Shown piece by piece: positions 8,031 through 62,856 of a DNA stretch of 64,000 nucleotides. Both the position numbers and the translations under genes were made by a program. The notes beneath the pieces were generated by a model. That model was not told where the DNA came from, searched no databases, and saw only the letters and a list, made by a program, of their open reading frames with translations. Position 1 is the stretch's first letter. Each line of letters starts with the position of its first letter. Source of the DNA: Taibaiella koreensis (lineage in GTDB: Bacteria > Bacteroidota > Bacteroidia > Chitinophagales > Chitinophagaceae); contig NZ_QVNU01000004.1 in assembly GCF_003545715.1 (NCBI RefSeq), forward strand, positions 62,001-126,000, read 5' to 3'.

Positions 8031-8171
8031 CTGACTATCCCGATATAGGAAACAAAATAATCTCTGGTCCTTGAGCACGTCGAAAGGACAGCTATAAATG
8101 GTGCTTCGACGGGCTCAGCAACCGTTATCAAGACGAATTTGACTCATGTTTCCTATATCAGGATAGTCAGC
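8031..8171. repeat. MITE-like element, copy 1
   Basis: About 140 bp bounded by terminal inverted repeats: the left end begins CTGACTATCCCGATATAGG and the complement of the right end begins CTGACTATCCTGATATAGG. The 9-bp sequence AAATTAAAA occurs just before the element (8022-8030) and again at 8172-8180, which fits a target-site duplication. Inside, CTTGAGCACGTCGAAAGG and CTTCGACGGGCTCAGCA form a nested inverted repeat. It has no coding capacity. A close copy lies at 62721-62856 and one with similar ends at 35164-35297. Confidence 0.75.
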
Positions 8172-14238: not shown

Positions 14239-14350
14239 TATATCGTTTATTTACCATAGCCCTGCCTGCTTACTGAATACCCTTATGCCGGGCCATGGGA
14301 ACGTCTGGATGTTGCTATCCTTTTGGGACATATTTTCCCGATAAAGGTAA

Positions 14351-14421
14351 AGCAAAAAAGCCGTCCCAAAAGGCCTCAAGCCCGTCACATGGACCGCAGT
14401 CGACATGTAAACAGGCTTGAG
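14351..14421 (-). terminator. Stem-loop terminator after the lanthipeptide gene
   Basis: CTCAAGCC.GT.ACATG (14375-14391) pairs with CATGT.A..GGCTTGAG (14404-14421). On the minus strand a run of six T (complement of AAAAAA near 14354-14359) follows. It would end a short monocistronic transcript of the precursor gene. The stem has mismatches. Confidence 0.5.
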
Positions 14422-14461
14422 ACATCAGTTTGGAACAGCTTCTGCTCTTGCTTTAATACCA

Positions 14462-14734
14462 TCAGGCTGTAACCGGGCAGCCATTACTGCAGCCTTGCGG
14501 CTCCGTCGCCGGAATGCAGACATGCGTCGCGCAGCAGTTGGACAACCAATCGATAGCGATCGAAGGACAGCCGTTGCTACAGCCCACCGGCTCGGTAGGC
14601 GGGATACAGGGACATACTGAAGGGTTAAGACGGCTGTCGTTCCCACCCATGGCCTGCAGCGACTGGCCGGGACTGAGTGTGGTGATCGTCTTTTTGTTGA
14701 GGCTAAGCCGGGTACTGAGGTGTTTCTTTTTCAT
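14462..14734 (-). CDS. Class I lanthipeptide precursor with tandemly duplicated core (orphan)
   Basis: 90 residues. The leader MKKKHLSTRLSLNKKTITTL and a GG at 30-31 match the Bacteroidota class I lanthipeptide precursor pattern (pinensin-type leaders). The 59-residue core has nine Cys (41, 43, 52, 56, 67, 68, 73, 82, 86) and ten Ser/Thr. It contains two copies, 30 residues apart, of CIP-x-TEP-x-GCSNGCP-x-x-A (residues 43-60 and 73-90), identical at 14 of 18 positions. No dehydratase, cyclase, protease or exporter of lanthipeptide type is in the window, so modification would act in trans. A promoter-like GCTAATTTTG lies upstream on the minus strand. Confidence 0.75.
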   Translation of the reverse strand: MKKKHLSTRLSLNKKTITTLSPGQSLQAMGGNDSRLNPSVCPCIPPTEPVGCSNGCPSIAIDWLSNCCATHVCIPATEPQGCSNGCPVTA

Positions 14735-14959
14735 CGTTCCTAGTTTGGTTACCTACAAAATTAGCGGTAATGAGCAACCGCTGTATTCCATGAAAACCCT
14801 GAAATTGAGGCAGGACAGCAACAGGATATCCCCTGCTGCTGTTCCTTCCGGCCCGCAATAGGCAACAGACCCCAATCCCCGAGCAGTACCGGTTTCCGGC
14901 AAGTAGCCTGCACCAGGTTTTAAATGGCTACATTAGCTGAAAATTATAGAAGCAGGATC

Positions 14960-62720: not shown

Positions 62721-62856
62721 ATAACTATCCCAATATAGGAAACAAAACAATCTCCGATCCTTGAACATGAAAGGACAGCGCTAAATGCTGCTTCGACAGA
62801 CTCAGCAGCCGTTATCAAGACGAATTTGACTAATGTTTTCTCTATCGGAATAATCA
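62721..62856. repeat. MITE-like element, copy 3
   Basis: Left end ATAACTATCCCAATATAGG; right-end complement starts TTGATTATTCCGATAGAG. The interior matches copy 1 at about five of six bases over 130 bp (shared CGTTATCAAGACGAATTTG, AGGAAACAAAA). More diverged ends than copy 1; no clear target duplication. Confidence 0.7.

Follow-up and report, generated by a model that had tools for sequence, protein, structure and literature searches.

A class I lanthipeptide precursor candidate with a duplicated core in Taibaiella koreensis, probably modified in trans as one of about 126 scattered precursors

The 90-residue ORF flagged by the original prediction in a 64,000-nucleotide stretch of Taibaiella koreensis DNA (the window) looks like a class I lanthipeptide precursor, judging from its leader and its core. 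Its product is probably modified in trans by class I enzymes that would also serve about 126 scattered precursors of the same genome. With some 126 precursors and just two dehydratase genes, the genome probably obtains more than 100 different ring-shaped peptides from a small set of shared enzymes. The interest of the flagged gene thus lies in its membership in this set of 126 dispersed precursors. A fuller reading, to which we would give slightly better than even chances, is that of a class I system acting in trans on more than 100 scattered precursors, many of whose cores would be products preserved one by one (conserved as much as the leaders or more) instead of forming a free-running library, with a preferred S/T-x4-C register and reusable modules (CIPxTExxxC, doubled in at least two genes).

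The flagged gene and its surroundings

The leader of the flagged gene scores 32 bits against NF038153 (lant_leader_L1a), a curated class I family of NCBIfam with a cut-off of 22. Its segment LSLNKKTITTL conforms to the LxLxKx5L motif and the leader ends with GG, in agreement with the Gly-Gly leader of Bacteroidota lanthipeptide type initially proposed. No Pfam family matched the protein. The features of the gene are collected in Table 1.

Table 1. Features of the flagged gene, in positions of the window
Feature	Position	Strand	Basis
Precursor gene, 90 aa	14462..14734	-	ATG start; NF038153 match; row 29 in the list of 127
Leader, residues 1-31, LxLxKx5L and terminal Gly-Gly	14642..14734	-	Profile match and motif
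Core, residues 32-90, 9 Cys and 10 Ser/Thr	14465..14641	-	Residue count
Core copy 1, residues 43-60, CIPPTEPVGCSNGCPSIA; proposed ring T47-x4-C52	14555..14608	-	Self-alignment
Core copy 2, residues 73-90, CIPATEPQGCSNGCPVTA; proposed ring T77-x4-C82	14465..14518	-	Self-alignment
TAATTTTG, Bacteroidota -7-like promoter element	14756..14763	-	TAnnTTTG match 22-29 nt before ATG
Terminator-like hairpin, with its T-run at 14354-14359	14350..14453	-	-55 kcal/mol; z -6.6, a fold unequalled in 200 shuffles

The two copies within the core start 30 residues apart and are identical at 14 of 18 residues, and the self-alignment of the core scores 82, against 51 for the best shuffle (0 of 500 as good). The duplication, its spacing and the Cys and Ser/Thr contents claimed for this core are thus confirmed. 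At the nucleotide level, 33 of 51 nt are shared over 17 codons, and a search for direct DNA repeats reported none in the gene. Between the copies, 12.8 of 13.2 synonymous sites differ, against 6.2 of 40.8 nonsynonymous ones. With synonymous sites mostly changed and few nonsynonymous changes, the duplication is old and its sequence has been kept. Both copies contain T-E-P-x-G-C, so that T-x4-C is kept twice, and the placement of Ser/Thr and Cys would be compatible with thioether rings. No second Gly-Gly stands between the copies. Of the two outcomes first envisaged for the duplicated core, two separate products thus appear less likely, and a single peptide carrying two similar ring systems is favoured.

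The gene had also been credited with its own promoter and terminator. A strong hairpin followed by a T-run is indeed found 3' of the gene; it is unlisted by a simple terminator scan, which gives one weak site upstream of the gene. Across the family, folding is more stable than in Markov-resampled controls (z < -2) for 52 of the 127 downstream regions, compared with 8 of the 127 upstream regions, and many precursor genes thus seem to own a terminator. The case for the promoter is more modest. The octamer TAATTTTG resembles TAnnTTTG, which we take to be the Bacteroidota -7 promoter element, but no clear -33 element accompanies it, and a scan with an E. coli-type consensus found no promoter for the gene. 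TAnnTTTG occurs within the last 200 nt upstream of 27 of the 127 family ORFs, where 14.9 would be expected, which lends modest support; among 30 starts of this motif in the 250 nt upstream of these ORFs, 19 fall between -50 and -10.

Clustering with LanB and LanC genes is usual for a LanA gene but does not strictly define it. No match to LanB, LanC or C39 was obtained near the flagged gene, as the original prediction had it: the nearest, a LanC gene, is separated from it by 507 kb of the same contig, and neither LanB gene is on that contig. The neighbours of the flagged gene, encoding LysR and a 324-aa transporter, are paired in T. helva and T. chishuiensis too (51% and 61-64% identity), without a precursor, and the closest relatives of the flagged gene sit in a cluster on contig C19. 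From these two observations, it gives the impression of a newcomer at this site, loss in T. helva and T. chishuiensis being possible. Synteny with its best T. helva relative was considered and rejected, as no ORF of the window matched that stretch of the T. helva genome; this relative instead occupies the place of the C19 cluster (C19:277-278 kb). No reciprocal core partner of the flagged gene was found in the ORF sets of T. helva and T. chishuiensis.

A dispersed precursor family and its candidate enzymes

Paralogous leaders were searched across the T. koreensis genome (5.94 Mb, 24 contigs). The leader-family profile gave 124 matches at E ≤ 1, of which 93 over the cut-off, and none over the cut-off in 14 control genomes. 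Together with three ORFs found by protein search, this brings the leader-bearing small ORFs to 127. Of these, 126 run uninterrupted over 50 aa or more and the remaining one has an early stop; one (row 61, in the list of 127) starts with GTG. The leader motif is present in its strict form in 106 of the 127 ORFs and in a relaxed form in 121, and GG in 124. These ORFs fall into 94 groups, 71 of which are single genes. A single precursor lies within 10 kb of a LanB gene, and ten lie within that distance of any LanB or LanC gene. The description of the flagged gene as an orphan holds in that no synthetase gene is near, but the gene is not alone, being one of about 126 uninterrupted dispersed precursors.

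The cores have a median length of 46 residues, with 13.5% Cys and 19% Ser plus Thr, and at least two Cys are present in 125 of 126. Within the genome they are mostly unlike one another, 83 of 7875 pairs scoring at least 60 versus 11 in shuffles. The pattern C[IVL][PT].TE...C is found in 8 of 245 cores, for 0.02 expected, and occurs twice each in the flagged gene and in a T. chishuiensis precursor. Clear internal repeats are also seen in the cores of rows 108 and 43 (scores 92 and 76; 0 of 100 shuffles as good), so that core duplication recurs in the family.

A mobile element that might have spread the precursors was sought in the flanks of the 127 ORFs, and no carrier was recognised among the matches followed. 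The flanks gave 163 BLAST hits; since 107 of them join distant rows, they do not merely reflect the overlap of neighbours. The best-matching segment is a palindromic element, about 120-150 nt long, of which 35 copies were counted in the 1.11 Mb of genome examined. Ten of the 35 lie at most 500 nt from a precursor, versus about five if the copies were evenly spread, a comparison uncorrected for intergenic preference; as a carrier, this element was rejected and read as a general repeat. Other common segments are found upstream of rows 30/42/116 and 37/111 and downstream of rows 36/109. Two copies of the palindromic element, MITE-like with matching ends, occur in the window itself, at 8033-8157 and 62724-62844 (C18:70033-70157 and C18:124724-124844).

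The modification enzymes, which the original prediction placed elsewhere in the genome, were sought by profile searches of the contigs. These revealed one LanB gene accompanied by exporter and HlyD genes, a second LanB gene and four LanC genes. In LanB1 (contig C16, 1074 aa), the two dehydratase domains are both recognised (463 and 209 bits), and the protein matches the solved proteins 9g04, a thiopeptide-type bacteriocin biosynthesis protein (2.2e-48), and 5ehk, a lantibiotic dehydratase (1.3e-31). A precursor lies about 1 kb upstream of LanB1, which is followed by a C39-ABC exporter and then HlyD, with no LanC among these neighbours. One further C39 domain passes the cut-off, in a 164-aa frame. 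LanB2 (C20, L127:5203-7971, 922 aa) is divergent and also has both dehydratase domains; neither an exporter nor a precursor is found in the 12 kb around it. The LANC_like search gave four stand-alone LanC-sized genes, on C18, C10, C19 and C2 (L111, L075, L122 and L125, respectively), all unlinked to LanB. One to three precursors, and no LanB, lie within 10 kb of each. All four LanCs carry WCYGD and CHG, presumably the zinc-site motifs. Cyclase genes outnumber dehydratase genes in this set, four against two. Modification of the flagged precursor by enzymes encoded at a distance fits the tests made, and the genome does not lack a lanthipeptide synthetase, which the original prediction had named as a refutation.

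In the mechanism proposed, a LanB from another locus, LanB1 being the likeliest, would recognise the leader (LxLxKx5L ... GG) and dehydrate Ser/Thr of the core. The choice of LanB1 is a preference, because LanB2 also has both dehydratase domains. Addition of Cys to the dehydrated residues would then be catalysed by one or more of the four unlinked LanCs, frequently with S/T-x4-C spacing (T47-C52 and T77-C82 in the flagged gene). The C39-ABC exporter beside LanB1 would cut after Gly-Gly and, together with its HlyD partner, export the product; from the duplicated core, this would be one peptide with two similar ring systems. As to the role of such peptides, secreted weapons used in competition, or signals, would be a guess. 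Some observations speak against this account, namely the LanB1 operon without LanC, the flagged gene without partner, and a ring register that is not seen in the cores of other genomes.

The dispersed precursors could alternatively be served by LanB2, with LanB1 acting just on its neighbour precursor. The two dehydratase domains of LanB2 and the presence of a counterpart in T. chishuiensis are in favour of such a division, which we nevertheless consider unlikely. Indeed, no counterpart of LanB2 is shown in T. helva, where the two LanB matches cover the whole N-terminal profile like LanB1, unlike the split LanB2-type match, in a genome with 66 leader matches; moreover, LanB2 has no exporter beside it.

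LanB1 thus stays the preferred enzyme, and the distribution of leaders and LanB genes can be followed outside T. koreensis. In the four genus genomes searched, the leader profile gave 119 matches at E ≤ 0.3 in T. koreensis, 76 in T. chishuiensis, 66 in T. helva and 0 in the fourth genome (G002). LanB genes number 2, 3, 2 (one in a 727-aa frame) and 0, in the same order. LanB and leaders thus co-occur in three genomes and are both lacking in G002, and the same precursor expansion, as counted from sequence matches, is present in three of the four genus genomes. In a sample of the family Chitinophagaceae, 8 of 117 genomes matched at E ≤ 0.001; T. koreensis and T. helva had dozens of matches, the other six 1 to 7. 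In a sample of the phylum, 9 of 395 genomes matched, at most 19 candidates per genome being scored, so that larger or dispersed leader sets are possible in a few candidate-rich genomes such as G339 (55 candidates) and G355 (34).

The 14 other genomes with leader matches in these two samples were represented by 17 stretches of at most 20 kb, two further places in genome G090 being left out. LanB is present in 14 of these 17 leader-bearing stretches, and in 12 of the 14 genomes, which ties the leader family to LanB. The leader matches of these genomes are few or in tandem, mostly in the same stretch as LanB. In G339, one stretch (L245) has at least 19 tandem leader-bearing genes together with LanB and a C39 exporter, and 12 of the cores are nearly identical, hydrophobic and Cys-poor (LCIGVIIGLT...). 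Another stretch (L247, in G096) has seven tandem leader-bearing genes with short Cys-Cys-rich cores and a C39 exporter near, and no LanB in the 20 kb examined.

Ring register and conservation of the cores

The spacing of Ser/Thr relative to Cys was studied after redundant cores had been removed, which left 114 of 126 in T. koreensis, 53 of 55 in T. helva and 59 of 64 in T. chishuiensis. Ser/Thr stands at position -5 from Cys, i.e. in the S/T-x4-C register, in 239 of 691 cases in T. koreensis, 95 of 317 in T. helva and 118 of 302 in T. chishuiensis. The corresponding z values are 9.9, 4.9 and 9.3, with 0 of 1000 shuffles as high for each genome; as to the independence of these tests, T. helva shares orthologs with T. 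koreensis and T. chishuiensis shares few. Among 97 strictly non-redundant cores of 245, the count is 150 of 476 for 97.5 expected (z 6.3; 0 of 2000 shuffles). There is no +5 peak in the cores of the three genomes and no -5 peak in 687 control ORFs, whose profile is flat. Besides, Ser/Thr is depleted at +1, and it is raised at +2 in T. koreensis and T. chishuiensis (z 3.4 and 3.5), at +3 in T. koreensis (z 3.5) and at -3 in T. helva (z 3.3). At least one S/T-x4-C occurs in 110 of the 126 T. koreensis cores, and an N-terminal Ser/Thr can be assigned to every Cys in 118. An enrichment at -5 is what would be expected if thioether rings of that size had been selected for. The -5 register was not seen (25 of 152) in a set of 50 cores from other genomes, with many repeats of a few clusters; -6 and -7 were enriched there.

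Cys-rich cores may also be those of disulfide-rich secreted peptides, the leader serving for C39 export alone and LanB/LanC acting on the few precursors linked to them. The high Cys content and the ten precursors near a LanB or LanC gene would suit this alternative, as would the even Cys numbers that are commoner in T. chishuiensis (38 even and 26 odd cores). Odd numbers are nevertheless found in 67 of 126 cores in T. koreensis (59 even) and 30 of 55 in T. helva (25 even), and taken together these counts do not suggest paired disulfides throughout. The enrichment of Ser/Thr at -5, with no peak at +5, is another argument against it. Furthermore, in 39 ortholog pairs, Cys is kept at 231 of 237 positions, Ser/Thr at -5 at 75 of 76, other Ser/Thr at 236 of 256 and other residues at 820 of 1156, the difference between -5 and other Ser/Thr having p = 0.056. 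Ser/Thr is thus kept better than other residues in the cores, whereas 110 flanking protein orthologs (at least 55% identity, median 89%) keep S/T as S/T in 84%. All considered, we regard disulfide-rich peptides as improbable and retain thioether rings formed by shared class I enzymes as the preferred reading.

Conservation between species was assessed with incomplete sets for the relatives, 55 ORFs having been recovered for 66 leader matches in T. helva and 65 for 76 in T. chishuiensis. Comparison of the 127 T. koreensis ORFs with T. helva gave 39 reciprocal best core pairs (2 with shuffled cores), with median identities of 77% for leaders and 84% for cores. T. chishuiensis gave 14 pairs (0 with shuffled cores), with medians of 48% and 52%. 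A partner in one relative or the other is found for 46 of the 127 ORFs and in neither for 81, partly because the relatives' sets are incomplete. As the 39 pairs had been picked by core similarity, which biases the pooled dN/dS, the calculation was repeated on 25 T. helva pairs with both flanks matched. It gave 0.136 for leaders and 0.094 for cores, rough ratios since dS is near saturation, and pN/pS was below 0.5 in 25 of 25 cores. Both flanks were matched for 30 ORFs: 24 have their reciprocal best partner at the same place, to which row 93, clearly an ortholog, was added by hand; rows 31, 45, 53 and 75 are supernumerary members of clusters, and for row 52 the T. helva core at the corresponding place is a different one. 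For rows 39, 65, 69 and 109, which have no partner, the T. helva locus was matched on one flank and the cores differ. The cores that have partners are thus conserved between species.

That the family represents repeats, decaying or neutral, left by a formerly active cluster, as its very high copy number, the one early stop among 127 ORFs and the 81 ORFs without partner in the relatives' incomplete sets might suggest, is very improbable in view of the low dN/dS and pN/pS at the 25 flank-matched loci and of the mainly synonymous differences between the two core copies of the flagged gene.

Comparison with known systems

As precursors, these genes belong to the known NF038153 kind, by leader profile. 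Their leader motif, Gly-Gly end, C39 protease and enzyme families are like those of Bacteroidota class I lanthipeptides, whose precursors have LxLxKx5L and a Gly-Gly end in the relevant text of Walker et al. 2020 (PMC7268733). Pinensins and the class I lanthipeptides of Pedobacter lusitanus are, in the accounts consulted, class I products from the same phylum. The dispersal of the precursors is unlike what is observed in the other sampled genomes, with their few or tandem leader matches mostly beside LanB. In the survey as described in PMC7268733, the distance from a LanC-domain protein to a precursor was limited to seven genes, and dispersed precursors would thus be missed. More generally, genome mining restricted to LanC/LanB neighbourhoods misses such precursor genes. 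In the open-licence literature, no paper was found on such a system, whether in Taibaiella or more widely, or on Chitinophagaceae lanthipeptides.

If modification in trans is true, the set outnumbers the 79 precursors given for SyncM, one LanM, in the part of PMC12328550 on that enzyme. A LanB/LanC set accepting more than 100 natural substrates would be useful in peptide engineering, and the system could be used to test why dozens of distinct lanthipeptides are maintained by purifying selection in one bacterium.

The closest parallel is with the prochlorosins and synechococsins (ProcA/SyncA). In the portion of the survey in PMC10783134 that bears on them, their genes are spread over the genome, the leader is conserved and the core less so, and the cyclase has a CCG motif. 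As there, many precursors, single or in tandem, have a common Gly-Gly leader and differing cores for very few enzymes. Indeed, many dispersed precursors per enzyme (127 ORFs in 94 groups for two LanBs) and a common leader with a variable core within the genome are both found in T. koreensis. The conservation of cores, with 46 of 127 having a partner and those of T. helva conserved, is a figure for this system alone and not for prochlorosins. The differences, as far as the sources cover them, are in the machinery: prochlorosins are of class II, with a LanM, a Nif11 leader, CCG and 79 precursors for SyncM, whereas T. koreensis has LanB and separate LanCs, CHG, the NF038153 leader and 126 uninterrupted precursors. 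The best reading by analogy is thus that of a class I counterpart of the prochlorosin system, which would work like it without being a member of it.
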